Positions 8,619-60,958 of a stretch of DNA of 64,000 nt are shown here, one piece after another (within the stretch, counting starts at the first letter, position 1; the number at the start of each line of letters is the position of its first letter). The notes below the pieces were generated by a model. It was not told the origin of the DNA and ran no database searches. It saw nothing but the letters and a program-made list of their open reading frames with translations. The DNA is taken from IMG/VR virus record IMGVR_UViG_3300017917_001434, positions 1-64,000 of that record, one strand, 5' to 3'. The translations under genes were made by a program, and so were the position numbers. This DNA is from a virus.

Positions 8619-8897
8619 ATGAAAAAGGTTCTTTTAGCATTACTGCTGACAATAGCCAGCAACACAGCACTAGCACATGGCCCTGGTTACGGATATGGAT
8701 ATTACCGTACAGGCAACGATTGGATTGTACCGTTGGTTGTTGGTGGAGCAGTTGGATATCTGTTGGCACAACCTCGTGTAGTCTATGTACAGCCTCCACC
8801 ACGTGTTATTACCGTAGAACCAGTATATCAATACATGTGGATTACCGACCCACAGTGTGGTTGTCAAAAACAAGTTTTAATACAAGTTACTAATTAG
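8619..8897 (+). CDS. Small exported Gly/Tyr/Pro-rich protein
   Basis: 92 residues. Signal peptide MKKVLLALLLTIASNTALA, then a Gly-Tyr repeat (GYGYGYY), a hydrophobic glycine-zipper-like stretch (about 40-52), and a Pro/Val-rich tail with two Cys (CGC). The SD AAGGAG is present. It resembles small periplasmic or outer-membrane glycine-zipper proteins. Its stop overlaps that of the convergent gene by 8 nt, with no terminator between. Confidence 0.7.
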   Translation: MKKVLLALLLTIASNTALAHGPGYGYGYYRTGNDWIVPLVVGGAVGYLLAQPRVVYVQPPPRVITVEPVYQYMWITDPQCGCQKQVLIQVTN

Positions 8898-10131
8898 TTA
8901 GTACACGGTATATTTGATCATAGGCTATGTTGCTGTCATCATAGCCTATTTCTTTGAATAAGGTACAACAATTATTCAGCAATTCTTTGGTAATAATGTG
9001 CTTAAATGCACCATAAAAGTGATGAAAATTGTACTCTACAATTGGCGCTAGGCGTTCAATTACGCGACTTTTTTCTTCTGCAGATAAGTTACAGTACCAA
9101 CGTAATTGTTCCGCAACAGCGTCTATTCTAGCATCATTATCCACAATCTTGTCATAACTTTCGTCAATAATACCATCAAAAGTTTTAAATCCATAACTGC
9201 GTAAGTACTCTAAATTACCCGGCGCGGCTATGAGCATAAATGGTTGTTTGCTGACTATGGGCTTAAATATTTTCTCTGTTAAGTGTAGTTTATTGTAGTA
9301 AAATACTGTTTCAGTAACTACGTTCCAAAGTGCATCTGCTTCGCGTAAAATGTTGGCACTGATACTGCCTGGTAATTCTGCACGATCAATTACCAGTTTA
9401 GAAATATCAGTTAAGTAACGTTCACTGTGTTGTCGAGCATGCTCGCTTAGTTTAGTATTAGGATCTGCAACTTCGTCACGCCAATCATCGAACACATTAT
9501 CAGTTACATTAAAACTAATTTGCCCTTTAGCCAGTAATTTAAGTTCTGCTAATTTGCTGGCCCAATATATTCTATAACTACGGTCGTGTGTAATGATACG
9601 ATTAAAACTGATAAAGTCGTGATTATAGGGTTTAATTACTGTTTTATCGTAGTTTAGAGCATAGTAACCGCGGTACCAATCCAGCGCAGCAAATCCGTGG
9701 AAAAAATAATATAGTTTCTTGGCGTTATATTTTTCTGCGTAATAATCAAATTGCTTGGAATGTTCGCTGGTAACAATTATTTTTTCTCTGTATATTCTAC
9801 GAGTATCTTCAATGAGATATTCAACTATGTCATCTGGTATTTTTTTAATTTTGTAAGGTGGTGAAAAATTCTTATCAAGTAGTTCTTCTAAGGTATATGA
9901 ATCAGGAAAAGCAAAAACGTCAAGATAGCGGTTGGCGATATTTTCCAGCATTGGCTCTTGATCGTAAAACATTATTTTTCTTATAACATCCGGGCTTGGA
10001 TTAAATACATTTAAATCATCAATGGTTATATCTTTGTTTTCTTGCACTACCCCATTGGGACAAAAAAAGACTTCAAAATCTTTAAACAAAGTTGATGATA
10101 AAAATTCGTAAACGTGATCAATTTGGAGCAT
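8890..10131 (-). CDS. Glycosyltransferase-like protein
   Basis: 413 residues. The C-terminal half (about 265-340) holds TEKIFKPIVSKQPF and a following GNLEYLRSYGFKTF and DESYD, a pattern of phage and bacterial fucosyltransferase/exostosin-like GT-B enzymes in which the TEK/KP segment contacts the sugar nucleotide. The N-terminal half is unassigned. Its start codon is 1 nt from the divergent dehydrogenase start and it has no SD. The neighbouring sugar-nucleotide dehydrogenase suggests it uses a uronic-type sugar donor, on cell surface or virion protein. Confidence 0.55.
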   Translation of the reverse strand: MLQIDHVYEFLSSTLFKDFEVFFCPNGVVQENKDITIDDLNVFNPSPDVIRKIMFYDQEPMLENIANRYLDVFAFPDSYTLEELLDKNFSPPYKIKKIPDDIVEYLIEDTRRIYREKIIVTSEHSKQFDYYAEKYNAKKLYYFFHGFAALDWYRGYYALNYDKTVIKPYNHDFISFNRIITHDRSYRIYWASKLAELKLLAKGQISFNVTDNVFDDWRDEVADPNTKLSEHARQHSERYLTDISKLVIDRAELPGSISANILREADALWNVVTETVFYYNKLHLTEKIFKPIVSKQPFMLIAAPGNLEYLRSYGFKTFDGIIDESYDKIVDNDARIDAVAEQLRWYCNLSAEEKSRVIERLAPIVEYNFHHFYGAFKHIITKELLNNCCTLFKEIGYDDSNIAYDQIYRVLTN

Positions 10132-10132
10132 T

Positions 10133-11359
10133 ATGTCAATTCAAAATGTAGGATTTATCGGTATCGGTAAATTAGGTCTTCCCTGTGCCGAAGTCATGGC
10201 ACGCAAATACTCAGTAACCGGCTATGATATTTACCCACGCACTAGCGATAAGATCGCAATATCTGATACCCTAGAAGACGCTTGTCGAAATAAGGATATT
10301 ATTTTTGTAGCAGTACAAACGCCACATGATCCTGCATATGACGGTAGTCGTCCAATTACACATTTAGAAAACAAAGATTTTGATTACACTATAGTTAATA
10401 ACGTGTTAGCAGATATTAATCAATATGTTACACAGGATCAGTTAGTAGTTTTAATCAGTACAGTTTTGCCAGGCACTACCCGACGTGAACTACGTAAAAA
10501 TATTACCAATGCTCGATTCATTTATAATCCCTACCTAATTGCCATGGGCAGTGTAGAATGGGATATGGTTAATCCCGAAATGGTAATTATTGGCACAGAA
10601 GATGGTAGCGAAACAGGCGATGCTAAACTACTGCGTGATTTTTATGCTCCACTGATGCAGAACAATCCGCGCTATGCCATCGGTACCTGGGACGAAGCAG
10701 AAGCAATTAAGATTTTCTATAACACATTTATCAGTGCTAAAGTAGGTCTGGTTAATATGATACAAGACGTTGCTATGAAGAATGGCAACATGAACGTAGA
10801 TGTAGTTACAGATGCACTAATCAATTCAACCATACGTATTGTCAGTGGCAAGTATATGAAAGCGGGCATGGGTGACGCAGGTCCTTGTCATCCACGCGAC
10901 AATATTGCTCTGCGCTGGCTAGCCGAAGAATTAAACTTGGGCTATGATATATTTAATACTATCATGCACGCTCGTGAAATGCAGGCCAACAATATTGCCT
11001 GTTACCTAGTTGACCTACAAGAACGCTACGATCTGCCTATCATTATTCACGGTATGGCTTATAAACCAGATATTGACATGCTAGATGGTAGCTACAGTTT
11101 ATTAATTGGCAGTTATCTAACAGTACACGGTGCGACGTTTGATTTCTGTGATCCGTTGTTAGGTAGAACTGTTGAAGATAACTATAACGCGGTTGTTCTA
11201 CTAGCACACAACCGTCAGGTTACTTACGGATATACTGGAGAGTTGCCCGAACAGCAACTATATTTTAAACCTGGTCCAGACAGCGTTATAGTTGACCCTT
11301 GGCGTACATTTAAATCTGACGAGTGGGAGGTTATACACTATGGCAATACTCGTGTCTAG
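10133..11359 (+). CDS. Nucleotide-sugar dehydrogenase (UDP-Glc/GDP-Man dehydrogenase family)
   Basis: 408 residues. N-terminal NAD-binding GxGxxG (GIGKLG), the central helical domain with EAEAIKIFYNT, the catalytic Cys in GPCHPRD (C252) and the C-terminal NAD-like domain with GMAYKPD. The family oxidises the C6 alcohol of a nucleotide sugar to a uronate using 2 NAD+. The SD GGAG lies inside the first codons of the divergent gene. It is the first gene of a plus-strand run up to 16639. Which sugar is oxidised cannot be read from sequence. Confidence 0.88.
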   Translation: MSIQNVGFIGIGKLGLPCAEVMARKYSVTGYDIYPRTSDKIAISDTLEDACRNKDIIFVAVQTPHDPAYDGSRPITHLENKDFDYTIVNNVLADINQYVTQDQLVVLISTVLPGTTRRELRKNITNARFIYNPYLIAMGSVEWDMVNPEMVIIGTEDGSETGDAKLLRDFYAPLMQNNPRYAIGTWDEAEAIKIFYNTFISAKVGLVNMIQDVAMKNGNMNVDVVTDALINSTIRIVSGKYMKAGMGDAGPCHPRDNIALRWLAEELNLGYDIFNTIMHAREMQANNIACYLVDLQERYDLPIIIHGMAYKPDIDMLDGSYSLLIGSYLTVHGATFDFCDPLLGRTVEDNYNAVVLLAHNRQVTYGYTGELPEQQLYFKPGPDSVIVDPWRTFKSDEWEVIHYGNTRV

Positions 11360-11858
11360 GTTTAATATAGAGCCTTTCTGGGATGATGCTTACCGTCATT
11401 TAGACTACGCTAAAGAACCATTCAATAATCCCAACGATTCACAGCGTTGGTTAGACATAGGCTTTGCTGATAACTTTGTCGGTGCTATGTGTGATATGCG
11501 TAAATCGCAGCCTGTATGGACTGCTGATATTATGGCAAGATTTGAAGTTCAATTGAATTGGAAAGATATTGGGGCTAGCTATTACCGTATGGACCCGGGC
11601 ACAATATTGCCACTCCATCGGGATACATATAAACGCTACATTGAAATATTTGAATTGGAAAATGATCCTCAGAGTGTATACCGTGCGATTGTATTCTTAG
11701 AAGATTGGGCTAGCGGGCATTATCTAGAAGTAGACGGTGAACCTATAACTAAATGGTCGGCAGGTGATGTAGTCACCTGGTGGTATGATACACCACATCT
11801 TGCGGCAAACATGGGCACTACACCAAGATACACATTACAAATAACAGGACACATATGA
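11340..11858 (+). CDS. Aspartyl/asparaginyl beta-hydroxylase-like 2OG oxygenase
   Basis: 172 residues from the ATG at 11340, which follows a GGGAGG SD; a longer start at 11292 lies deep inside the dehydrogenase. The jelly-roll motif LHRDTYKR supplies the HxD metal ligands, a second His lies in TPHLAANMG, and the 2OG-contacting Arg in PRYTLQ. The pattern fits the Asp/Asn beta-hydroxylase cupins that oxidise free or peptide-bound amino acids. Overlap with the amidinotransferase gene (ATGA) suggests a shared pathway. Confidence 0.75.
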   Translation: MAILVSRFNIEPFWDDAYRHLDYAKEPFNNPNDSQRWLDIGFADNFVGAMCDMRKSQPVWTADIMARFEVQLNWKDIGASYYRMDPGTILPLHRDTYKRYIEIFELENDPQSVYRAIVFLEDWASGHYLEVDGEPITKWSAGDVVTWWYDTPHLAANMGTTPRYTLQITGHI

Positions 11859-12769
11859 TAATAAACAGTAATAACGAATGGGGCAAATTAAGAAGTGTAG
11901 TAGTAGGATCAGCAACTCATGCAAACTGGCCCAGCACAGATCCAGTATTTGCGCTTGAAAGTGAAAAAACCCTTTGGAAAGAAACGCCTGTACCCAGTGG
12001 GCCTGTGCCACAATGGATAGTTGACGAAGCTAACGAGGACCTAGAAGATTTAGCCAACGTTTTACGTGATCTAGGAGTGGCTGTTTACCGTCCGCACGAA
12101 ATGAATTTTGTTGAGAAAAGCGGCATGTATAACTACTGCCCGCGTGATAGATTATTAATAGCTGGTAGTCGTGTTGTTGATCCGGTGATGATGTATCCTT
12201 GCCGTGACCAAGAAGTATACGCTTTAGATTTTGTCTACCAGTCTGCCAGTGAAGTTTTACACATGCCACGTAACGGAACTATGGTTATGGATGCGGCTAA
12301 TGTTTGCCGTATGAATGATCGTTGGTTATATCTAGAGAGCCCTAGTGGTAATCGTGCGGCCTATGATTGGCTGTGTCGCCAACTACCTGAAATAGATATT
12401 GAACTAGTAAACTTTTATAGTGGTGTACACATTGACAGCACTATTTGCCCACTGCGCGAAGGCTTCGTTGTACTGAATGCTAGCCGCGTTAATCCCAATA
12501 ACTGTCCTCGAGCATTTGAAGGTTGGACTAAACTTTGGGTACAAGACGTTGTAGCACAGGACTTCTATAAATATCCTTACGCTAGCAAATGGATTGGTAT
12601 GAATATGTTAAGTATTGATCCGAACACGGTAATTGTAGATCGCGATCAGCATCAATTGATTGAAGACTTAGAACGTGCTCGATTTACAGTAATACCCTTG
12701 CAAATGCGTCATGCACGCACATTAGGTGGTGGCTTCCACTGTGTGACCCTTGATTTAGTTAGGGATTAA
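11855..12769 (+). CDS. Amidinotransferase (AGAT-like, arginine amidino donor)
   Basis: 304 residues. The glycine/inosamine amidinotransferase catalytic set is visible: Asp in MDAANVC (D146), the His and Asp of VHIDS (H192, D194) and the nucleophilic Cys in GGGFHC (C296). Such enzymes move the amidino group from Arg to an amine, giving a guanidino compound and ornithine, or hydrolyse it. It sits between a 2OG hydroxylase and an MTase-like protein; a second, diverged amidinotransferase lies at 15512. The acceptor is unknown. Confidence 0.88.
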   Translation: MIINSNNEWGKLRSVVVGSATHANWPSTDPVFALESEKTLWKETPVPSGPVPQWIVDEANEDLEDLANVLRDLGVAVYRPHEMNFVEKSGMYNYCPRDRLLIAGSRVVDPVMMYPCRDQEVYALDFVYQSASEVLHMPRNGTMVMDAANVCRMNDRWLYLESPSGNRAAYDWLCRQLPEIDIELVNFYSGVHIDSTICPLREGFVVLNASRVNPNNCPRAFEGWTKLWVQDVVAQDFYKYPYASKWIGMNMLSIDPNTVIVDRDQHQLIEDLERARFTVIPLQMRHARTLGGGFHCVTLDLVRD

Positions 12770-12796
12770 TAAATAAAATAAAAACATGGAAGTCTT

Positions 12797-13528
12797 ATGC
12801 CGCATAGTTACGCGACCTACACAAACGCATCTGTAAATGCTCTGAAATTTAATCCTAAGAGTCAAGAAGCCATTGATAAAAAACAAGAGATTCTTTCAGG
12901 TATAGCACAGCACTATCAATCTAATCCCACTAGTATACTATTTGTGGGCTTTAGTCCCTTGATAATGGGCGTAACCTACAAACAAGTTTATGTCACGGAC
13001 ATAACCGAAGAAACAAAAAAATTCCTCGATTCTAGCGACATTAAATACACATATATTGAGGATAAAGAATTACCAAATTATCGTAAACAATTTAGTTGGG
13101 TAGTAGCCGGCGACGAGTATTTTACTTTTGCTAAAACTGAAGAAGAACAGCGTAACAGTGTTGTTGCCATGGCTAGTCTGGCTAAAAATTTAATTGTAAC
13201 AACCTTGCGTGACTATAAAAATCAGAACTTTAAAGAGCGCGAATTTAGTCAGCCCTTGGCAGTTTACAATCATAAAGATAGTTTGTTATTCTTAGAATAT
13301 CACCACTATGACTACAGTGATAAAAATGCCTGGGAAACTGTGGTGTATGAATTAAATGGACCTAACGCAACTATGTATGGACCGTTCGCTAGACGTAGTA
13401 TGTTTTTCAAGCAAATGGCAAAATTTAGTTTGGATGCCGGTGCTAAAGAGTTTTACGTACATAAGAATTTAATGTACAAAAGTCTCATAAAGAAGAATTA
13501 TGAGCATGTAATATCAATTAGTTTGTAG
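12797..13528 (+). CDS. Unknown protein, possible degenerate methyltransferase fold
   Basis: 243 residues. A segment ILFVGFSPL...VYVTDIT (about 47-70) has the beta-alpha-beta rhythm of a Rossmann-type SAM-binding site, and WVVAGDEYF (about 101-109) could be motif IV. The glycine-rich loop is incomplete, so activity is doubtful. It lies in the modification cluster just before the fibre-like gene. A weak SD (GGAAG) precedes the ATG. Confidence 0.4.
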   Translation: MPHSYATYTNASVNALKFNPKSQEAIDKKQEILSGIAQHYQSNPTSILFVGFSPLIMGVTYKQVYVTDITEETKKFLDSSDIKYTYIEDKELPNYRKQFSWVVAGDEYFTFAKTEEEQRNSVVAMASLAKNLIVTTLRDYKNQNFKEREFSQPLAVYNHKDSLLFLEYHHYDYSDKNAWETVVYELNGPNATMYGPFARRSMFFKQMAKFSLDAGAKEFYVHKNLMYKSLIKKNYEHVISISL

Positions 13529-13555
13529 TATAACATTTAGTTTTTCGATGAAAAT

Positions 13556-14605
13556 ATGGATATCAATCAACAATTACAACCCGTAATCTCTACGCTTATT
13601 GCCGGTGTTAATCAGGTAATCGAAGCAGAAATAAAAAAACGTTTGCATGAACTGGATATTAACGGCATAGTTAATACCATAGTCAAACAGAACCTCAGCG
13701 AACTAATCAAAATACAAGACTTTCCAGAACATAGCATTCCGCATTCTAGTATTATCTTTGATAACTTTATCTTAACTGGTAACAGCATCAAGGGTGGTAT
13801 CATTGAAAACTTTGGTAGTACAGGTATTGAGGACCGCGCTACTCGAGTGCAAATGACTATCATGGATCGCGGCATAGCATTTGAAAATACACTGTATGCA
13901 CCCAGCGGCGAATTCAAAGGAACAGTTACCGTTGATGGTGATCTTATAGTCAAAGGCGAAGTGCCAACTAACAGTAATTTATTTGTAAAACTAGTTGAAC
14001 ATAGCACGGCCAAAGTCAAAGACTCAATCAATGAATCCTTATTTGAAGGTTTCAGTACAGTTATTCACAAGACAATAGTTGACAATGGAATAGACCTTGG
14101 TCGGATTACCATGAACGGCAAAGAGGTAATCACAGGTAATCAACTAGGATATCATATTGTTGATAGTAATCTACAACGTGTTGGTGTGTTAAACGATCTA
14201 CAGACGTCCGGAGAAAATCTACTCAGCGAAACGCTATATGTAACACAAAGACGTGTTGGTGTGAATACTATAGACCCAAGCAGTGCTTTTGTAGTCTGGG
14301 ACGAAGAAGTTGAAATGATAGTAGCCAAACGTAAATCCGACACAGGCTACATTGGCACTACGAGACATCAACCAGTGGTAATTGGTAGTAACAACAAAGA
14401 AAATATCTATCTTAACACTGACGGCGGTGTTGAAATTGAAAATCTAAGTGTTGGTAATGTACCAATGAGTTCTGCCGCAGTCGTGCCTAACTATGAAGGT
14501 ATAACTGGGGAGATAGTCTGGAACGAAGCTCCGGCACCTGGTAGTAATATTGGCTGGGTCTGCGTAGGCGGTACACGTTGGGCAGAGTTTGGCGCAATTA
14601 AATGA
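13556..14605 (+). CDS. Tail fibre-like structural protein
   Basis: 349 residues. A helical N-terminus (about 1-60) is followed by beta-rich segments with fibre-like repeats (FDNFILTGNSIKGGIIENF, GTVTVDGDLIVKGEV) and a C-terminal GWVCVGGTRWAEFG motif seen at the ends of many phage fibre proteins. It lies inside the enzyme cluster at 8890-16639 and overlaps the next gene by ATGA, so it could be the substrate that the cluster modifies (inference). Confidence 0.65.
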   Translation: MDINQQLQPVISTLIAGVNQVIEAEIKKRLHELDINGIVNTIVKQNLSELIKIQDFPEHSIPHSSIIFDNFILTGNSIKGGIIENFGSTGIEDRATRVQMTIMDRGIAFENTLYAPSGEFKGTVTVDGDLIVKGEVPTNSNLFVKLVEHSTAKVKDSINESLFEGFSTVIHKTIVDNGIDLGRITMNGKEVITGNQLGYHIVDSNLQRVGVLNDLQTSGENLLSETLYVTQRRVGVNTIDPSSAFVVWDEEVEMIVAKRKSDTGYIGTTRHQPVVIGSNNKENIYLNTDGGVEIENLSVGNVPMSSAAVVPNYEGITGEIVWNEAPAPGSNIGWVCVGGTRWAEFGAIK

Positions 14606-15087
14606 TAACCCAAGAATCTGTAACTCACAAACTATTGACATGGATGGAAGAGTTTGTTGAACAACCTCATCCAAGTCTTGGCGGTTGGCCCCCTTGTCCA
14701 TATGCACGCCAAGCAAGACTAAGCAATAACATATTAATTAAACAAGGCACAGATCCATACTATGATGGTATGAGCCTACTAACCTATGATTGGTCTAAAG
14801 AAGCAGTGGTATTTTGGTATGAATCTTTTGACCCTAACATATTTGTAACTATGGTTAACAATGCCAATGAAAAATTGTTACCTAAAAACATTGTCATACT
14901 TGAAGACCATCCCAACACAGAAGAAATTACCAGTGGTGTACGTATGAACTTTGGCTACTGTCCTATTATAGTTTGTCAACAGTTAGACAAACTTAACGCA
15001 GCCGGTGAACAATTAAAAGCCAAAGGATACTACGATACCTGGAGCCAGGAAGATTTGGATAAGATTGTAACATGGCGACACAAATGA
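14602..15087 (+). CDS. Unknown protein of the amidinotransferase cluster
   Basis: 161 residues, soluble. A conserved-looking GGWPPCPYARQARL stretch (residues 27-40) has a Cys in a Pro-rich turn. The start overlaps the fibre gene stop (ATGA) and the end overlaps the next start. No family named. Confidence 0.6.
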   Translation: MITQESVTHKLLTWMEEFVEQPHPSLGGWPPCPYARQARLSNNILIKQGTDPYYDGMSLLTYDWSKEAVVFWYESFDPNIFVTMVNNANEKLLPKNIVILEDHPNTEEITSGVRMNFGYCPIIVCQQLDKLNAAGEQLKAKGYYDTWSQEDLDKIVTWRHK

Positions 15088-15515
15088 AATTTGCTAGGAT
15101 AAATCTTAGTGAAACCAATTATAGTATTAAAGATAATTGGTCATACGTTCGCGGCATCGATCTATATCCAACTCTCCATCAAATTTATAGACAGTACTGC
15201 AACTATAAAAAGTTTGACAGTGTAATGCCATTATTTGATAATCAATTTCACGATCCATTAACTGACATTATTGGCTATTATTTTAATAGTCAACTTGTGG
15301 CATTTAGTCTTGTTAAAACTTATGATAAAGAAAATGCCGAAGCACTACAGTTTGCCTGGGACTATGTTGACCCTGAACTGCGACTAGGAATCGAAAGTTT
15401 AAAAAACGAATGTGCTGTATACAAAGCTCGAGGTTTTCGTTATTTGTATCTGGGATCAGCTGACGAGTATAAAAGTGAATTAGATGGATACGAAATATTA
15501 GGACCACTACAATGA
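15072..15515 (+). CDS. GNAT / arginyl-transferase C-domain-like protein
   Basis: 147 residues; starts at 15072 or at the in-frame ATG 15084. The segment IIGYYFNSQLVAFSLV and a downstream YLYLG resemble the C-terminal acyltransferase fold of arginyl-tRNA-protein transferases and related GNAT proteins; QFAWDYVDPELRLGIESL matches the same region. It may transfer an acyl or aminoacyl group. It overlaps both neighbours, including the second amidinotransferase. Confidence 0.45.
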   Translation: MATQMKFARINLSETNYSIKDNWSYVRGIDLYPTLHQIYRQYCNYKKFDSVMPLFDNQFHDPLTDIIGYYFNSQLVAFSLVKTYDKENAEALQFAWDYVDPELRLGIESLKNECAVYKARGFRYLYLGSADEYKSELDGYEILGPLQ

Positions 15516-16639
15516 AATTAAGTGTACATCAACCGTGGGATCCGTTAAAACTCTGTATTGTCGGTCGTACCTACAGTCCTGAATTTTATCAGTTTATTAC
15601 AGATCCGCGTGCTAGATCTGTTATGGAACGTATAGCTAGCGAATGTGAAGAAGACTATCAAAAATTAATTTCTTTGCTTGAGTCGTTTAATGTTGAAGTG
15701 GTACGTCCTGAATTATCCGATGATTACACACAGTACCAAAATCCTAATGGACAACTAGCACCGCCACCAATGTGCCCAAGAGATTACCTGGCAATGATCG
15801 GGGAAGATTTTTATGTCGAAACTAATCAGATTCTGGTTTCTTGGGATTATCTTAAAGGGTGGACCTGGCCAGATAAACCAACGTTGGCCAAAGATATACC
15901 ATTAGAAATACAGCAAGACTGTGCTACGTTGAACGTACACGATCTACACGATCGCAGACAAGAATATCAAACAATTATTGATCGAGTATCTGCATCCAAC
16001 CGTGTAATTTTTAACAAGGATAAAAATCTAAATACCGCAATGATTGCACGTGTAGGAAAAGATCTTTATTTTGGTACCGAGTCTTTAAAAGATAACCTAG
16101 TCGAACTTCAAAAGAAATACCAAGGATACTTCCCTGACTATCGTTGTCACATGGTTAATACCGGAGGACACCTCGATGGAACTTTTGCTGTGGTCGCTCC
16201 AGGCCTAGTAATAAGTTCTCAGGAAATACATAATTTTCATGAATTATTTCCGGACTGGGAAATTGTATATGTTCCTTATAGCCAATTAGGGACGGTACAG
16301 GGATTTAGTCGCATTAAACAGCAAAATGCTGGCAAGTGGTGGGTGCCTGGCGAAGAAGAGAACACAGCATTTACAGAATTTGTCAGCTGCTGGATTAACA
16401 ACTGGGTAGGCTACGTTGAAGAAACATTATTTGATGTAAACTTGTTGGTAATTGATCCTAAAAATGTAGCAGTAAGTGGACACAACGAAACGGTATTTCG
16501 CGCACTAGACCGTTATGGAATCACTCCACATATAGTCAACTTTAGGCATAGATTTTTCTGGGATGGCGGTCTGCACTGTATAACCAGCGACCTGCATCGA
16601 GAAGGTACACTAAACAACTACTTTCCAAAACGAGGTTGA
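15512..16639 (+). CDS. Second amidinotransferase-family enzyme
   Basis: 375 residues. HLDG (H220, D222) and the nucleophile region GGLHC (C356) give the amidinotransferase/arginine deiminase-like catalytic layout; CPRDYLAMIG near 90 is a substrate-side motif also present as CPRDRLLIAG in the first enzyme. It is longer than that enzyme by about 70 residues. Overlap ATGA with the gene before. The -35 of the uvdE promoter overlaps its stop. Confidence 0.83.
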   Translation: MKLSVHQPWDPLKLCIVGRTYSPEFYQFITDPRARSVMERIASECEEDYQKLISLLESFNVEVVRPELSDDYTQYQNPNGQLAPPPMCPRDYLAMIGEDFYVETNQILVSWDYLKGWTWPDKPTLAKDIPLEIQQDCATLNVHDLHDRRQEYQTIIDRVSASNRVIFNKDKNLNTAMIARVGKDLYFGTESLKDNLVELQKKYQGYFPDYRCHMVNTGGHLDGTFAVVAPGLVISSQEIHNFHELFPDWEIVYVPYSQLGTVQGFSRIKQQNAGKWWVPGEEENTAFTEFVSCWINNWVGYVEETLFDVNLLVIDPKNVAVSGHNETVFRALDRYGITPHIVNFRHRFFWDGGLHCITSDLHREGTLNNYFPKRG

Positions 16640-16664
16640 CACAATCATAATATGCTGTTATAAT
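16636..16664 (+). promoter_or_regulatory. Sigma70-type promoter, predicted leaderless start
   Basis: TTGACA at 16636-16641, 17-bp spacer, TATAAT at 16659-16664. The seventh base after TATAAT is the A of the uvdE ATG (16671). Confidence 0.8.
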
Positions 16665-16670
16665 TACAGC

Positions 16671-17714
16671 ATGACTTATACATCTCAACTACAACGCATC
16701 GGTTTTGCCTGCAAGTGGATTGACACCCCTGAACAGGTCAATGGTATCAAACCTAAAGATCCAGCTAAAGTCTATAATACTGGTGCCACCACGGTGGCCT
16801 GGTTAAATAGACAGACACGTGATGTTGCTGAACAAAAACTATGGGACCTAATGGTTGAGAACATAGAAGCCACACGTAAACTTATTGAAAGAGTCGGTGC
16901 CTTAGATGAATCCCTTAGAATGGTTCGCTTATCAAGCGATATACTACCAGTTTATACAGAACGTACTTGGAGTTACTTTTGGCGTCAGCCTGACGTTATT
17001 GTTTATCTTGAACGTCACTTGGGCGAGGTGGGTCAGCTTTGTCGTAGCCTTGGCGTCCGCGTATCTTTTCATCCTGGTCAATTCACAGTTCTTGCAAGCG
17101 ATAACCCGGATATTGTTCACAGAAGTATAGAAGAGTTTGAGTATCATGCCGATATGATACGCTATATGGGATTTGGTCAACAGTTCCAAGACTTCAAGTG
17201 TAATGTACACATCGCAGGCCGTAGAGGCGCACAGGGCATACGTGATGTCTATCCACTACTATCACCCGAAGCACGTAATACTATTACTATCGAAAACGAG
17301 GAAATGAAACATGGACTTGTGGATTGCCTTGAGCTTTACGACATTTTGCCTATTGTTCTTGATATACACCATCATTGGGTCCGAGAAGGAGAATATATCA
17401 GCTGTGTTGACGACAGAGTTAAGAAAGTTATTGAAAGTTGGCGTGGCGTGCGTCCTGTTTGTCATTACAGCGTATCTCGTGAAGACGTATTGGTTGGGCA
17501 CGATACTAACACTGCTCCTAACTACGCCCAGCTCTTAGAGTCAGGTCATAAAAAATCACACCTAAGAGCACACAGTGACTTTTACTGGAATGATGCCGTT
17601 AACGACTGGGCATTGACCTTTAGCAAGAACTTTGACATCATGTGCGAGAGCAAGGCTAAGAATCTTGCTAGTTTTGCCTTGTATGAGCGAGCCAAAGCCA
17701 CGGGGGTATTATGA
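16671..17714 (+). CDS. uvsE: UV damage endonuclease (UvdE/UvsE family)
   Basis: 347 residues, a TIM-barrel repair nuclease. Recognisable family stretches: QRIGFACKW at the start, VSFHPGQFTVL (about 127-137), NVHIAGRRG, ITIENEE and LDIHHHW, which carry the His/Glu/Asp metal ligands. It nicks DNA 5' to UV photoproducts. No SD is present; the start is fixed by the family N-terminus and falls at the expected transcription start of the promoter at 16636-16664, so the mRNA is probably leaderless. Confidence 0.92.
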   Translation: MTYTSQLQRIGFACKWIDTPEQVNGIKPKDPAKVYNTGATTVAWLNRQTRDVAEQKLWDLMVENIEATRKLIERVGALDESLRMVRLSSDILPVYTERTWSYFWRQPDVIVYLERHLGEVGQLCRSLGVRVSFHPGQFTVLASDNPDIVHRSIEEFEYHADMIRYMGFGQQFQDFKCNVHIAGRRGAQGIRDVYPLLSPEARNTITIENEEMKHGLVDCLELYDILPIVLDIHHHWVREGEYISCVDDRVKKVIESWRGVRPVCHYSVSREDVLVGHDTNTAPNYAQLLESGHKKSHLRAHSDFYWNDAVNDWALTFSKNFDIMCESKAKNLASFALYERAKATGVL

Positions 17715-20144: not shown

Positions 20145-20395
20145 TGAAAGAACTTGTATTAAACGACGATTGGCAGTATAACAATGAAGAAGAGGCTGAA
20201 ATGGGCCAACTTCATGCTATCCATAACAACATGAATGCTGTAGCTGACGTGCGCCGTAAGTTACTGGAACAAGCTGCACAACCTAGCGCAGAGTTCTGTG
20301 AAGAGTGCGGTGATGAAATCCCAGAAGCTAGACGCAAGGCTGTACCAGGTGTACAGTTCTGCGTATTCTGTCAAGAAAAACATGAGCGTAGATAA
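20144..20395 (+). CDS. DksA/TraR-type C4 zinc-finger protein
   Basis: 83 residues. A helical N-terminal part is followed by CEECGDEIPEARR and CVFCQ, the four-Cys zinc finger of the DksA/TraR/YbiI family. Short phage members such as TraR bind RNA polymerase in the secondary channel and retune host transcription without ppGpp. The same role is plausible here. TAATG junction with the gene before. Confidence 0.85.
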   Translation: MKELVLNDDWQYNNEEEAEMGQLHAIHNNMNAVADVRRKLLEQAAQPSAEFCEECGDEIPEARRKAVPGVQFCVFCQEKHERR

Positions 20396-21506
20396 TATTT
20401 GTTTTCATCCATGGGTAGGATTAGATATTGGTCCCCAAGGTGAGTTTAAGCCTTGTTGTAAATATCAAAACAGTATTGCCAATAACATTGATGATTACTA
20501 CAACAGCAAAGAATTAGCTGATCTTAAAGATGCTTTCTCACGAGGAGAACGGCCAACTGGTTGTCAGCGTTGTTGGAGTGATGAGGATGCCGGTCATCCT
20601 AGCAAACGTTTAGATGACTGGAAATATATTTTTAATGAAACAGTTCCTAACACAGACAAACTAAAAGTTTTAATGTTTGCCTTTGGTAATAGTTGTAATT
20701 TAGCCTGTCGAACCTGTAACAGTTATTCGTCGTCAACTTGGATCATTGAATCGAGAAAAGTTATCGATTTATTCCCAGACTCTAAGATATATAAGCACCA
20801 GAGATTTTATCAAGACATCTATTTACTCGATCGTTTAAAGTCTTTAGGATCAGACATCACCGAGCTGTATTTTCATGGTGGCGAACCATTCATTGCTGGC
20901 ACTGCTGAACACTTAGATTTTTTAAAATATTTCCTTACTCAACGGCCTGAAAATATAACTTTGCATTACATGACAAATGTCACAATATTTCCTCAGCAAG
21001 AATTTTGGGATATTTGGAAACAATTTAAAAAAGTTAACATACAGTTGAGCATTGACGGTATTGGTTCACATTTTGAATATACTCGTTGGCCTGCGAAATG
21101 GACCGACGTTGAATTAAATATCAATCAATATAAACAGTATTCAGGCGACAATATAAAATTATCAGTGGGACACGTGATTAGTATTTTTACAGTCTACTAT
21201 CTGCCAGAATTTTATAAATGGCTATTACAAAATAAATTTGTTGATCCGTTTATTAGTCTGCTAGCAGACCCTGAAATCTATAATATTAAAACTTTACCCA
21301 AAGATGTTAAAGATCGTGTTGCTGAAAAATTGACAAAATATAAGTTTGACACTATAATACAGTATATGTATTCTGAAGATTTAAGCGGTACATTTGGTCA
21401 AACCGCAGAGTATACAAGAATATTGGATCAACAGAGAAATCAAAATTTTGAAAACACTTTTCCAGAATTTAATCAATTATTAAAGGAATCAGGATGCCAA
21501 ATTTAG
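20382..21506 (+). CDS. Radical SAM protein with N-terminal Cys-rich (twitch/SPASM-like) part
   Basis: 374 residues from the ATG at 20382, which overlaps the zinc-finger gene. An N-terminal CCKYQ...CQRCW cluster suggests an auxiliary Fe-S site; the radical SAM motif CNLACRTC gives C105, C109 and C112; a GGEPF SAM-binding motif follows. Twitch/SPASM radical SAM enzymes often modify peptides or sugars. Its stop lies inside the start of clpP and a second radical SAM follows clpP. Substrate unknown. Confidence 0.83.
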
Positions 21507-22114
21507 TACCAATGGTTTTAGAGCGTACATCAGAAGGTGAACGCAGTTATGATATCTACAGTCGATTGCTCAAAGACCGTATTGTCATGCTAGACACTGA
21601 AGTTAGTGAACATTCAGCCAGTCTGCTAGTAGCACAGTTGCTATTTTTAGAAGCAGAAAATCCAGAACAGGATATTTTGTTTTACATTAACAGCCCAGGC
21701 GGTAGTGTTACTGCTGGTCTAGCAATTTATGACACTATGCAGTTTATCAAACCAGACGTGCGTACTATTGTAATTGGACAGGCTGCCAGTATGGGCAGTT
21801 TTCTAGCACAAGCCGGTGCACCAGGTAAACGTTATGTGTTACCCGAATCGCGTACAATGATTCACCGTGTGAGCTCGGGCACACGCGGCACAGGCGGTAG
21901 CGTGTATGTACAGGAATTAGAGTTTGAAGATGCACGTCGACACTTAGAAGAAAGCAAACGTTTAAATCAACGTCTGACAGAGTTGTATGTTAAGCACAAC
22001 TCTAAAGGCAAGGCCTATGATGAACTTGCCGAGGCAATGAAGTTTGATACCTTTTTATCAGCTGAACAGGCAGTTGAATATGGCCTAGCGGATGAAATCA
22101 TTACCAAACGCTAA
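21494..22114 (+). CDS. clpP: ClpP-type ATP-dependent protease subunit
   Basis: 206 residues. Catalytic triad Ser99 (QAASMGSF), His124 (MIHRV) and Asp185 (FDTFLSA), plus the substrate motif INSPGGSV. Ser-His spacing is as in E. coli ClpP, but about 12 extra residues follow His124 ([14 protein letters not shown]) in the handle region, so the barrel contacts may differ. No Clp ATPase is in the window, so it would pair with host ClpX or ClpA, or act alone in a maturation step. Sandwiched between two radical SAM genes with overlaps on both sides. Confidence 0.93.
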
Positions 22115-23378
22115 CGTCTTTTGTAATACACCATGGTACGAGGCTCACATCTATTGGGATGGGAGTCTCGGTATCTGCTGTCAGGAAAGTTTTAAACTCA
22201 GCGAAGATCCTCAATATAATATCCGAAACATGACTCTAGCCGAGTGGTTTAACAGCGAGCCTGTTAGAAAGCTTCGGTTGGGTATTTTAGGCAACGACGG
22301 CTTACCTATTTGTAATCGTTGTTACCAAGAAGAAACACACAGTGGCACTAGCCGTAGACACCGTAGCAATCAAAAAAGTGTAATCTTTACCAAGCAGGCA
22401 TTTGCGGAAAGTTTTGATCAAAGCCCAGGTTACGAACACTTTATGTTCAGCAAAGGTATGGATGGACTTACTACAACCATGCCCATTGATCTGCATATTG
22501 ATTTAGGTAATCACTGTAATTTAGCCTGCAAGATGTGTTGGCCAGGTGCTAGCACACGTATTGCTAGCCAATGGGTTAAATGGGGACTTCCTGCTGAACA
22601 ATATCTTGGCGTAGACTGGACCAAAGATGAACAGGTCTGGCGCAGGTTTATGGGCGAACTGGTTGCCATACCTAAACTTAAGAACATACATTTTATGGGC
22701 GGCGAAACACTGTTAAGTCCTAGACTAGAGCAACTAATAGATCACATGATCACGCATAAAAGATTTGATGTTTGTTTTAGTTTTGTCACTAACGGAACAG
22801 TGTATAAGCCGGACTTAATTGAAAAGCTCAAACTGTTTGGGCGGGTAGGCATTGAAATCAGTATAGAAACAACTACTCGGCACAATGATTATATACGGCA
22901 AGGATCTCGGGTTGAAGAAGTCATTGAAAATATCCAACGTTATAAACAGCTATGCGACGGGTCCAAGGTTAGTCTTACTCTACGTCCTGCTATCAGCGCA
23001 TTATCTATTGGATACTATCATACACTACTACAATTTTGTTTAGATGAACAACTATTAATCAAGAGCTTGATAGTGAGAGATCCGCGGTATCTAGAACCAT
23101 CAGTACTGTCGCATAAAATACGCGAGCATTACATACTACCTTACTTAAAAATGTTAAATTCTCTAGGCGATGTTGATACTATTACAGATTACAACGAAAG
23201 TGACCCAAACAATTATCTTCGGGTAGTTAAACAACAGGTAGAACAGGTAATAAATCTACTTAGAGAAAGTCCCAAATCTTACGCTACCGCGGAACTATTA
23301 CATTGGTGTCAGCGTTGGGACAAAGAGTTTGGTTTTGACATGTTTGAACTCTATCCAGAATTTAAGGATCTAAAATGA
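22092..23378 (+). CDS. Second radical SAM protein
   Basis: 428 residues. An N-terminal auxiliary cluster (FCNTPWY...GICCQ...CNRCY) precedes the radical SAM motif CNLACKMC (C142, C146, C149) and a GGE motif. The start overlaps the end of clpP by 23 nt. Same layout as the product of 20382-21506, so a paralogous pair. Product and substrate are unknown. Confidence 0.83.
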
Positions 23379-25970: not shown

Positions 25971-26050
25971 TTAAGTTTATTAAACGATTATTTCAAGGTA
26001 AGGACTATGTAGGTTATAGACCTTATTGGTTTAAACAGCGTAAACACTAA
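25967..26050 (+). CDS. 27-residue basic peptide abutting the tmRNA acceptor piece
   Basis: MIKFIKRLFQGKDY...; basic and amphipathic. Coupled to the ORF before by ATGA. Its TAA ends at 26050, directly before the tmRNA acceptor piece, and its coding sequence contains AAGGTAAGGACT (25995-26006), repeated exactly at 26049-26060 where that piece begins. Confidence 0.45.
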   Translation: MIKFIKRLFQGKDYVGYRPYWFKQRKH

Positions 26051-26095
26051 GGTAAGGACTTCAAGACGGCGGTTCGATTCCGCCCAGGTCCACCA
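26051..26095 (+). ncRNA. ssrA: Permuted tmRNA, acceptor (3') piece
   Basis: tRNA-like 3' half. T-stem GGCGG (26068-26072) / CCGCC (26080-26084) with loop TTCGATT, then the acceptor strand CAGGTCC (26085-26091), discriminator A and an encoded CCA (26093-26095). CAGGTCC pairs over all 7 positions, one of them G-U, with GGGCCTG at 26213-26219, the start of the coding piece lying downstream. The 5' boundary is approximate. The order acceptor first, coding second is that of the two-piece tmRNAs of alphaproteobacteria, some cyanobacteria and some betaproteobacteria. Confidence 0.85.
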
Positions 26096-26106
26096 AAAGG
26101 TATCTT

Positions 26107-26211
26107 ATGGAATATATTTGGATAACAGTATTTGTTTCAATTCATATTTGGGCATTATTAAAATATGAATCAGATGAAAAAATAGACCAAATGTGGCAAG
26201 ATAATTTTTGA
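26107..26211 (+). CDS. 34-residue membrane peptide inside the tmRNA intervening segment
   Basis: ATG with AAAAGG 6 nt upstream; TGA ends 1 nt before the coding piece of the tmRNA. The product has one membrane helix (about 3-18, MEYIWITVFVSIHIW) and an acidic tail. The ORF fills almost all of the 117-nt segment (26096-26212) that must be removed to make mature tmRNA. If translated, it would be read from the precursor or the excised piece. Confidence 0.5.
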   Translation: MEYIWITVFVSIHIWALLKYESDEKIDQMWQDNF

Positions 26212-26212
26212 T

Positions 26213-26428
26213 GGGCCTGACCAGGTTTCGATTGGGGTAGATAGAATAAGTGCGCTCGAGAGTCGACTGACGTAATCAGCGAAAAACTAGTAAATGCAAA
26301 AGCAAATACTTCTAACGTAGTCAAAGTATCTATGGGCCGTGGCTTCCGCTTCGGTACTCGTAATACTGAGGCTTTAGCAGCTTAGTACTGCCGTTCGGGG
26401 CAGTTATGCCTTGTTACCCAAAATAACC
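26213..26428 (+). ncRNA. ssrA: Permuted tmRNA, coding (5') piece with a long tag
   Basis: Starts GGGCCTGACCAGG with the tmRNA D-loop-like GGTTTCGATTGGGG (26224-26237). An open tag frame runs from GCA at 26296 to TAG at 26383-26385: 29 residues beginning AKANTSN and ending RNTEALAA (27 if the second GCA is the resume codon). The ALAA end is the ClpXP/ClpAP degradation signal. A hairpin ACTGCC / GGCAGT after the stop fits a tmRNA pseudoknot or helix. The exact 3' end is not known; the terminator stem begins at 26429. No smpB is in the window. Confidence 0.85.
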
Positions 26429-26448
26429 AAACCCGCTTCGGCGGGTTT
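26429..26448 (+). terminator. Rho-independent terminator of the tmRNA operon
   Basis: Stem AAACCCGC / GCGGGTTT with TTCG loop, just after the tmRNA coding piece. Confidence 0.85.
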
Positions 26449-26466
26449 GCTACCTTTATAAAGAGG

Positions 26467-26494
26467 TTGACAAATACACTAAATCGTGTATAAT
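26467..26494 (+). promoter_or_regulatory. Sigma70-type promoter
   Basis: TTGACA, 16-bp spacer, TATAAT; reads into the ParB-like gene through a 74-nt leader holding a small inverted repeat (GTAGA / TCTAC). Confidence 0.8.
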
Positions 26495-28589: not shown

Positions 28590-30213
<1,624 letters not shown>

Positions 30214-30215
<2 letters not shown>

Positions 30216-30244: not shown

Positions 30245-30274
30245 AATAGCAGGACTAAGTCCTGCTATTTTTTT
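30245..30274 (+). terminator. Rho-independent terminator after groEL
   Basis: Stem AATAGCAGGA / TCCTGCTATT with loop CTAAG, then a T-run to 30274. Confidence 0.9.
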
Positions 30275-59650: not shown

Positions 59651-59948
59651 GTGCGGAGCCCGTGGCTGGTTCTTGGGCGATTTTTCCGGTAGTGTACTAC
59701 CCACAAAAGACTTTGAAGTATGCTACCAAAAGAATCCTCGCAGTCAGACAGCCAGTCATATTCATAAGGTTGCCCACGAAATTACATTAGTAATCAGTGG
59801 GCGTCAGATATGTAACGGACAAATGTTTGAAGCTGGGGATATTTGTGTACTAGAGCCAGGCGATATAAGTCAGATTGAATACCTAGAAGAAACCGAAGTA
59901 GTCACTATTAAAGTTCCAAGTGTACCTGGCGACAAATATCTTCTCTAA
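59628..59948 (+). CDS. Cupin-fold protein
   Basis: 106 residues. HIHKVAHEITLVISG supplies the cupin-1 His/Glu motif and GDICVLEPGD the second. Small single-domain cupin, maybe a metal-dependent isomerase or sensor. Overlaps the gene before by 23 nt; its stop overlaps the convergent radical SAM gene. Confidence 0.78.
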   Translation: MKRYKLNECGARGWFLGDFSGSVLPTKDFEVCYQKNPRSQTASHIHKVAHEITLVISGRQICNGQMFEAGDICVLEPGDISQIEYLEETEVVTIKVPSVPGDKYLL

Positions 59949-60958
59949 GAATCTTTAACACCGCAAGTTTGATTACAACGCCAAAGTCTGCCTTCCTTGT
60001 AGCTATTTTTACTCCAGGATTCTTCGACCCGATTGAACCATTCCATACACTCTCGTAATGGTCTTTTTAGAGCATTAATTTCTTCATTGCCTATCAGTTC
60101 TTTAATCTGTTCTAGTCCGTAGACATACGCAGGCGAATAAGTCTTTGGCATGATTCCTAGATAACAACAAGGGCTTACATCTCCATTGGCACTAATGTAG
60201 ATTGTTCTGTCTCTAATTGTTTCGCAGTCAATTTTTTTATGCACCGGATCTGTATATTTTCTAGTTTTAGAAAACTGTATAATATCTTCTAAATGTTTGT
60301 GATATGTTTTATATTTGCCTACATCTTTGGAGCCAATGGAATGAGTATAGTTTCCATCTCTGTCATAGGCAGCACCCTGATTTCTACCATGGTCTACTGG
60401 AGTGAAATCACTAAAGCCTAATTCTTTAGCTAGTTTACGACATTGTTCAATTTGATGTCTATTATGATCAAACTCAATCATTTTCCATATGGCCGTTCCG
60501 CCAGCATTCATAAAAATTTTTGCATTTTTAATAACAGTATGCCAGTCGGTGTCTGCCCTATATAAACTATGGGTGTCTTCAAGACCATCGAGGGCAAATA
60601 TGATTTCAATATTGCCTAATTTGCCCAAGGCGGTCCAAAATTCACGATCTCTGGCACTACCATTGGTACCAATGGACACAAAAAGTGACGGGTTGTGTTG
60701 TCTAAAATAACTAATAATTTCTAAGGATTCAGGGGCTAACATAAAGTCCCCAAAATTGCCATTGATGTACAATCTTTTTAACCTACCAATAAAGTCTGGT
60801 TCGAATATTTTTTTGATGTCATCTAAGGATAAAGAGGTTTCAGGATACCCTAAATTTATAGGGTATCCGTGAAAGTTTCTTGGACAAAGAATGCAACGTG
60901 CGTTACATTTCGTTGAAAGTTCAAGATGTATTACTCTTACATCTTCATATTTTATCAT
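59945..60958 (-). CDS. Radical SAM protein with SPASM-like C-terminus
   Basis: 337 residues. CNARCILC (C18, C22, C25) near the N-terminus, SAM-binding strands, then Cys clusters DVSPCCYLG and CNQTC that look like a SPASM auxiliary cluster. Third radical SAM of the window. No SD; TATAAATA lies exactly 5 nt before the ATG. Confidence 0.85.
   Translation of the reverse strand: MIKYEDVRVIHLELSTKCNARCILCPRNFHGYPINLGYPETSLSLDDIKKIFEPDFIGRLKRLYINGNFGDFMLAPESLEIISYFRQHNPSLFVSIGTNGSARDREFWTALGKLGNIEIIFALDGLEDTHSLYRADTDWHTVIKNAKIFMNAGGTAIWKMIEFDHNRHQIEQCRKLAKELGFSDFTPVDHGRNQGAAYDRDGNYTHSIGSKDVGKYKTYHKHLEDIIQFSKTRKYTDPVHKKIDCETIRDRTIYISANGDVSPCCYLGIMPKTYSPAYVYGLEQIKELIGNEEINALKRPLRECMEWFNRVEESWSKNSYKEGRLWRCNQTCGVKDS

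Follow-up and report, generated by a model that had tools for sequence, protein, structure and literature searches.

In a window of 64,000 bases, positions 1 to 64000 of the IMG/VR virus record IMGVR_UViG_3300017917_001434 (89,592 bases in total), we found a cluster of genes (8890-16639) in which a glycosyltransferase-like protein (GT) and a nucleoside diphosphate (NDP)-sugar dehydrogenase (UGDH) lie next to a 2-oxoglutarate (2OG)-Fe(II) oxygenase (AspH) and an amidinotransferase (AMT1). With about even confidence, we take it to be a set of phage genes for glycan tailoring, whose products would synthesise a sugar with a guanidino group, probably hydroxylated as well, and transfer it; the substrates, products and target of this pathway are what we infer from the genes. 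Sugar-decorating genes are already known in phages, and the guanidine chemistry is the new part: no description of phage guanidine-sugar chemistry or of this gene set was found in the searchable papers, which were open access only, so that its novelty is unproven. The initial annotation likewise knew of no such phage pathway, which agrees with those papers, although the annotation of cyanophage S-SCSM2R places an oxygenase and an amidinotransferase as a pair within a glycosyltransferase operon.

The core module and its conservation

All the open reading frames (ORFs) ascribed to the cluster by the initial annotation are present. Eight genes run on the plus strand from 10133 to 16639, most of them joined by overlaps, as had been noted (20, 4, 4, 16, and 4 bases; the two other junctions are 27-base gaps), and the GT gene is divergent, with one base separating it from the start of the dehydrogenase gene. 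The cluster is real. The linked genes do not form a single compact unit, as had been proposed, but split into two modules: a core (GT, UGDH, AspH, and AMT1, followed in closer relatives by the genes MT and FIB) and an accessory module (D6875, ATE, and a second amidinotransferase-like gene, AMT2) linked by short overlaps. AMT2 was near AMT1 in only 2 of the 40 AMT1 clusters with flank, a count that leaves out the window's own, in which the flank of that locus is insufficient.

The AMT1 profile matches StrB1, the inosamine-phosphate amidinotransferase of streptomycin biosynthesis (1bwd), with an E value of 1e-88, human GATM with 1e-51, and the hydrolase DDAH with 1e-5. The catalytic residues of human AGAT are Asp254, His303, and Cys407, and its 300-flap is among the determinants of specificity (PMC3684758; PMC4887976). 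The equivalents of Asp170, Asp254, His303, Asp305, Arg322, Ser355, and Cys407 are invariant in 20/20 AMT1 sequences, so that AMT1 shares with StrB1 and GATM all the catalytic and arginine-binding positions compared, and it also carries the short flap of StrB1. The evidence supports a StrB1-like amidinotransferase with a complete StrB1-type active site, for which arginine would again be the expected donor. Streptomycin bears a guanidine group, which is nitrogen-rich and arginine-like. What sets AMT1 apart from StrB1 and GATM is its location in a phage, beside a 2OG oxygenase, an NDP-sugar dehydrogenase and a glycosyltransferase.

The oxygenase scores just below the Pfam gathering cut-off (PF05118, E 2e-4, 21.6 bits versus 22.6), with the iron ligands H93-x-D95 and H153 and the 2OG-binding R163 invariant in 17 homologues; this supports an Asp_Arg_Hydrox-type 2OG-Fe(II) oxygenase with an intact metal site, in line with the hydroxylase-like label that it had received. 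UGDH had been called a nucleotide-sugar dehydrogenase, and on its domains and catalytic residue the assignment is solid: PF03721 (E 5e-17, 62.4 bits) and PF00984 (E 5e-14, 52.5 bits) are both above cut-off, it matches phrog_9148 (E 1e-96), the closest solved family is UDP-glucose 6-dehydrogenase, and the catalytic Cys252 is invariant in 18 homologues. The C-terminal domain and the NCBIfam subfamily model scored below cut-off.

GT has no Pfam or PHROG match, no credible Pfam family among its 31 members and no PDB match by sequence, and it falls into no known CAZy or Pfam sequence family. Its AlphaFold2 model, built with the 31 homologues (pLDDT 87.5), has GT-B enzymes as leading PDB fold matches (SdgB, trehalose-6-phosphate synthase, LmbT, and WaaG; probability 0.9 to 1.0, E 3e-4 to 1e-2, TM-score only about 0.33). 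The glycosyltransferase-like label is thus upheld through the predicted fold, which supports a GT-B glycosyltransferase at fold level with low TM-scores. This fold is also matched by a viral protein that carries the name UDP-glucose/GDP-mannose dehydrogenase and is 788 aa long, which may be a dehydrogenase-transferase fusion.

AMT1 loci were collected from viral contigs, six bacterial-genome contigs and phage records, and grouping them at 95% identity left 53 distinct clusters, one of which is the window's own. In 47 of these 53, the gene directly before AMT1 is AspH, a tight linkage; within 9 kb of AMT1, GT was found in 42 and UGDH in 34 of the 46 clusters with flank. Chance is ruled out for the core gene order, since it is conserved in tens of distinct contigs, and the scattering in relatives against which the initial annotation had proposed to check its cluster does not apply to the core: UGDH, the oxygenase and AMT1 stay with GT. 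The AspH-AMT1 pair also occurs in a Bdellovibrionota contig and in cyanophage S-SCSM2R, there within a series of glycosyltransferase genes that also has an AHBA-synthase-type gene, and in one locus (L098) a PF13640 2OG oxygenase precedes the amidinotransferase in the place of AspH. A scan of bacterial genomes with AMT1 returned six loci only, three of them actinobacterial and StrB-type, without AspH or GT. In L022 a NUMOD3 homing-endonuclease-type gene (1901-2431) is inserted between AspH and AMT1, and the spacing of the pair is the same in L009.

MT and FIB, which follow AMT1, are less constant (20 and 26 of 40 testable clusters, respectively). MT had been annotated as methyltransferase-like, a label that we dropped: there is no credible match to any Pfam family or to a methyltransferase among 21 homologues, and no match in sequenced phages. 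FIB is plausibly, but weakly, a fibre protein, as had been annotated; the profile of 23 homologues, in whose alignment the N-terminal stalk is variable, matches a tail-fibre-like ORF at 30273 in the window (E 1.5e-8).

Glycan or lipopolysaccharide clusters of cyanophages and pelagimyophages (S-SCSM1, S-SCSM2R, Bellamy, and HTVC008M; PMC9602691, PMC7029224) have a similar composition, with an NDP-sugar dehydrogenase, glycosyltransferases, 2OG oxygenases and group-transfer decorators in overlapping operons. Relatives of UGDH are found in Synechococcus phage Bellamy and pelagiphage HTVC008M, within glycan operons with a carbamoyltransferase, a methyltransferase and glycosyltransferases. The decorators there are carbamoyl- and methyltransferases, whereas here they would be an amidinotransferase and a DUF6875-like heme protein. 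The glycan genes of marine myophages have been read as host-surface modification, possibly against coinfection (PMC7029224; PMC9602691). In Firehammervirus (Campylobacter phages F379 and CP220), a glycine/inosamine-phosphate amidinotransferase has a nucleotide-diphospho-sugar transferase and radical SAM genes for neighbours, but its identity is about 20 to 26% and no AspH, UGDH or DUF6875-like neighbour is annotated.

We searched 13 AMT1-bearing records for SDR and DegT genes. An SDR dehydratase/epimerase adjoins a DegT aminotransferase in eight of them, exactly the eight larger than 190 kb. The SDR protein resembles NDP-sugar 4,6-dehydratases and related enzymes, and the DegT protein is similar to a scyllo-inositol transaminase and to NDP-sugar aminotransferases such as PseC. 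In one of these records, L110, to which locus L060 belongs, a single strand carries SDR, DegT, an AMT2 and two genes of the GT family. Large ORFs (442 to 872 aa) without a Pfam family lie beside DegT in L105-L110, where the sugar genes occupy the other strand.

The accessory module

Of the two amidinotransferases in the initial annotation, AMT1 is backed by profile and residues; AMT2 is backed by its profile (E 1e-27 against GATM) and departs in its residues. Its homologues form their own clade (support 100/100), in which the equivalents of Cys407, His303, Asp305, and Asp170 are kept in 20/20 sequences, but Asp254 is kept in 1/20 (N, S, T, H, or C in the other 19) and Arg322, not conserved, likewise in 1/20, a difference from both StrB1 and GATM. 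AMT2 is thus supported as a divergent clade of the amidinotransferase family that has lost two active-site residues. Because Asp254 is replaced and Arg322 lost, its substrate binding and base chemistry must differ.

D6875, overlooked by the initial annotation, has only sub-threshold matches to DUF6875 (PF21780, E 0.0012) and DUF1415, and did not place in the YqcI/YcgG family by sequence. Its AlphaFold2 model (pLDDT 93.8) gives SpoVS/Alba-like partial matches first, and the only matches spanning the whole protein are structures of AglA (TM-score 0.52, probability 0.9, E 0.05). The YqcI/YcgG heme guanidine N-hydroxylases have AglA as their prototype, an enzyme with a four-strand sandwich and a cysteine thiolate ligand, Cys44 (PMC12866846); enzymes of this type are also treated in PMC10849742. 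The D6875 model has the helix-strand order and overall fold described for AglA, a four-strand sandwich with helices on both faces, which gives moderate support to a YqcI/YcgG-type fold. Cys32-Pro33 is invariant in 11 aligned and two further members (L036 and L084/L085), thirteen in total, and Cys32 is a candidate for the thiolate ligand; D6875 is probably a thiolate-heme oxygenase. Unlike the YqcI/YcgG enzymes (AglA, GntA, ChmN, and DcsA), it has no sequence-level match to their family, is smaller (161 aa), and is nearer to DUF6875 by Pfam. DUF6875 proteins have been reported as heme-binding tryptophan hydroxylases (PMC13307353). A guanidine-type oxygenase fold next to an amidinotransferase is suggestive, and the substrate could be a guanidine or an aromatic ring.

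The ATE/GNAT-like label of the third gene is weak, all scores being below cut-off: PF04377 matches with E 0.0014 (best homologue 5.7e-5, 24.2 bits versus a cut-off of 25) and a solved arginyltransferase with E 0.36. Its 147 aa contain no ATE N-terminal domain, and we do not assign it as an arginyl-tRNA-protein transferase, only weakly as an ATE_C/GNAT-like protein.

Accessory-module genes were found in 22 distinct groups of loci, and the module recurs alone in other phages. ATE is accompanied by D6875 in every locus where it occurs, and DUF6614 joins the module in most loci. No DUF6614 gene was found in the window's genome, which is weak evidence as the family control matched nowhere; tblastn with a phage DUF6614 protein gave no match in the window either. 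AMT2 is often in tandem: pairs occur in unrelated phage backgrounds (L073-L075, L078, and L085), followed by DUF6614 in L073-L075 and L078 and by a D6875-like gene in L085. An ATE-DUF6614-D6875 set lies about 5 kb from the AMT1 core in L094, where no AMT2 was seen; AMT2 overlaps a GT-family gene in L068; and in L036 a short, divergent D6875-like ORF directly after FIB may be a relic.

We tentatively suggest, as a rather unlikely possibility, that the accessory module is a phage pathway of guanidine N-oxygenation, in which AMT2 would install or accept the amidino group, the AglA-fold thiolate-heme protein would hydroxylate it, and the ATE-like protein and DUF6614 would be partners, giving N-hydroxyguanidine glycans or proteins on phage or host. 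No description of an N-hydroxyguanidine decoration was found for any virus.

Proposed pathway and competing explanations

In the glycan-tailoring pathway that we favour, UGDH, whose family and catalytic cysteine are clear, would convert a UDP-sugar into a UDP-uronic acid, and in the large relatives the dehydratase/epimerase and DegT genes could supply an amino sugar to it. AMT1, with arginine as the presumed donor, would amidinate an amine of the sugar or of a small attached unit, acting through its conserved active site as StrB1 does on an aminocyclitol. AspH, linked to AMT1 and with its metal site intact, may hydroxylate the same building block or an attached residue, and the GT-B protein would transfer the product. 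The accessory module might be a second layer of guanidine chemistry, where AMT2 would place another amidino group, the DUF6875-like heme protein would hydroxylate the AMT2 product, and the ATE-like protein may act as an aminoacyl- or acyltransferase. The acceptor could be the fibre encoded next to these genes or a glycan on the host surface, whose modification would keep competing phages out. The initial annotation had proposed both targets and we keep both; FIB is a direct neighbour, yet about one AMT1 locus in three lacks it nearby, as half lack MT, and the clusters of cultured marine phages have been read as modifying the host surface.

Several observations weigh against this pathway. GT is identified by its fold, with low TM-scores. 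The loci were fetched by similarity to AMT1, so that the counts describe what accompanies AMT1 and not the reverse, and about a quarter of them (12/46) have no UGDH nearby. The window's own 89.6-kb record, which may be incomplete, has no SDR and no aminotransferase, an absence that may reflect missing sequence or the use of the host's amino sugars. Lacking two residues of the canonical active site, AMT2 may be unable to use arginine or may be no amidinotransferase at all, and both it and AMT1 could take free amino acids or polyamines as substrates.

The initial annotation had proposed a modified sugar or amino acid; the sugar is the best reading and the amino acid is kept as a lower one. It seems unlikely, on balance, that a non-protein amino acid (e.g., of the hydroxylated homoarginine type) is built or attached on the fibre or another protein, with GT and the dehydrogenase serving a separate purpose. 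The name of PF05118 refers to Asp/Asn beta-hydroxylases, arginyl-tRNA protein transferases make up ATE_C, lysine is the acceptor of AmtA (PMC4887976), AMT1 is followed by MT and FIB in many loci, and the loci without nearby UGDH would fit as well. However, the near-constant GT-family gene, the inconstancy of MT and FIB, the closeness of AMT1 to StrB1, an aminocyclitol enzyme, and the location of the L110 AMT2 within an amino-sugar and glycosyltransferase set all argue against it.

Less likely again is a diffusible guanidino metabolite, either a host-directed inhibitor or a metabolic modulator, instead of a polymer decoration. StrB1, SxtG, CyrA, and AmtA, as well as the heme enzymes AglA, GntA, and ChmN, serve small-molecule pathways, and the accessory module recurs apart from the core; but we recognised in the cluster neither a synthetase nor a carrier protein or transporter, a glycosyltransferase is the best-conserved neighbour, and in cultured phages the relatives of these genes belong to glycan operons.

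A sugar placed on phage DNA as a hypermodified base is very improbable, and we set it aside. GT-B enzymes glucosylate T4 DNA, and next to the sugar genes of five large relatives there is a member of the Thymidylat_synt family. Phage DNA modified with sugars has been described (PMC12838424). However, the one gene of this family sampled scores above cut-off as a plain thymidylate synthase (NCBIfam), the FNIASY motif of that enzyme is kept in both sequences read, another large relative has ThyX in its place, and the window's own record has no thymidylate-synthase-family gene.

That AMT1 and AMT2 are arginine hydrolases draining host arginine, with unrelated neighbours, is scarcely credible, because the shared pentein superfamily and a Pfam match carrying the name arginine deiminase are outweighed by an AMT1 far nearer to the transferase than to DDAH (E 1e-88 versus 1e-5) and by its conserved linkage to AspH and GT.

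The glycan clusters of phages are thought to alter host surfaces or virion proteins, and the decorations so far annotated in them are mostly sugars, methyl and carbamoyl groups. If a guanidino sugar is indeed made, its strongly basic group would alter the charge of the surface, with a block to rival phages or the shielding of fibres as possible consequences; the group also predicts a specific, easily visible mass shift. Two new enzyme partnerships emerge, the AspH-AMT1 pair and the AMT2/DUF6875/ATE/DUF6614 module, together with an amidinotransferase clade, AMT2, with an altered active site.

Genomic setting

The clamp loader, DNA ligase, PhoH, GroEL, endolysin and tail-fibre genes present in the window mark its source, as far as gene content tells, as a large tailed phage. 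This phage is aquatic and uncultured. The record is probably an incomplete fragment of a larger phage genome, because relatives with the same core reach 357 kb.

Features of the cluster and of its downstream border, with the evidence for each
Feature	Position	Strand	Basis
GT: GT-B-fold glycosyltransferase-like, 413 aa	8890..10131	-	predicted fold
UGDH: UDP-glucose 6-dehydrogenase-type NDP-sugar dehydrogenase, 408 aa	10133..11359	+	Pfam, PHROG, Cys252
AspH: Asp_Arg_Hydrox-type 2OG-Fe(II) oxygenase, 172 aa	11340..11858	+	PF05118 below cut-off, invariant ligands
AMT1: StrB1-like amidinotransferase, 304 aa	11855..12769	+	profile, invariant active site
MT: protein without Pfam family, 243 aa	12797..13528	+	homologues; then FIB where found
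FIB: fibre-like, 349 aa (420-423 aa in many relatives)	13556..14605	+	homologue profile
D6875: DUF6875-like, probable thiolate-heme oxygenase, 161 aa	14602..15087	+	PF21780 below cut-off, model
ATE: minimal ATE_C/GNAT-like, 147 aa	15072..15515	+	PF04377 below cut-off
AMT2: divergent amidinotransferase, 375 aa	15512..16639	+	profile, own clade
Sigma-70-type promoter-like site, perfect	16636..16664	+	12/12 consensus matches, extended -10

A UvdE-type UV-damage endonuclease gene (16671-17714) adjoins the cluster. The promoter-like site after AMT2 lies ahead of it and its place shifts among relatives, and for these reasons we suggest that it is a separate unit, outside the cluster. T4-type late promoters (TATAAATA) are rarer than expected by chance.

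Further along the window there are a permuted-type transfer-messenger RNA (tmRNA) gene predicted by ARAGORN (26003-26476; tag AKANTSNVVKVSMGRGFRFGTRNTEALAA) and a phage-encoded GroEL chaperonin (28593-30215; phrog_5725, E 7e-174). Several radical SAM domain proteins are encoded within 20298-23378 and 59945-60958, and two of these genes flank a conserved ORF of 206 aa (21494-22114) that is found after the cluster in many relatives.

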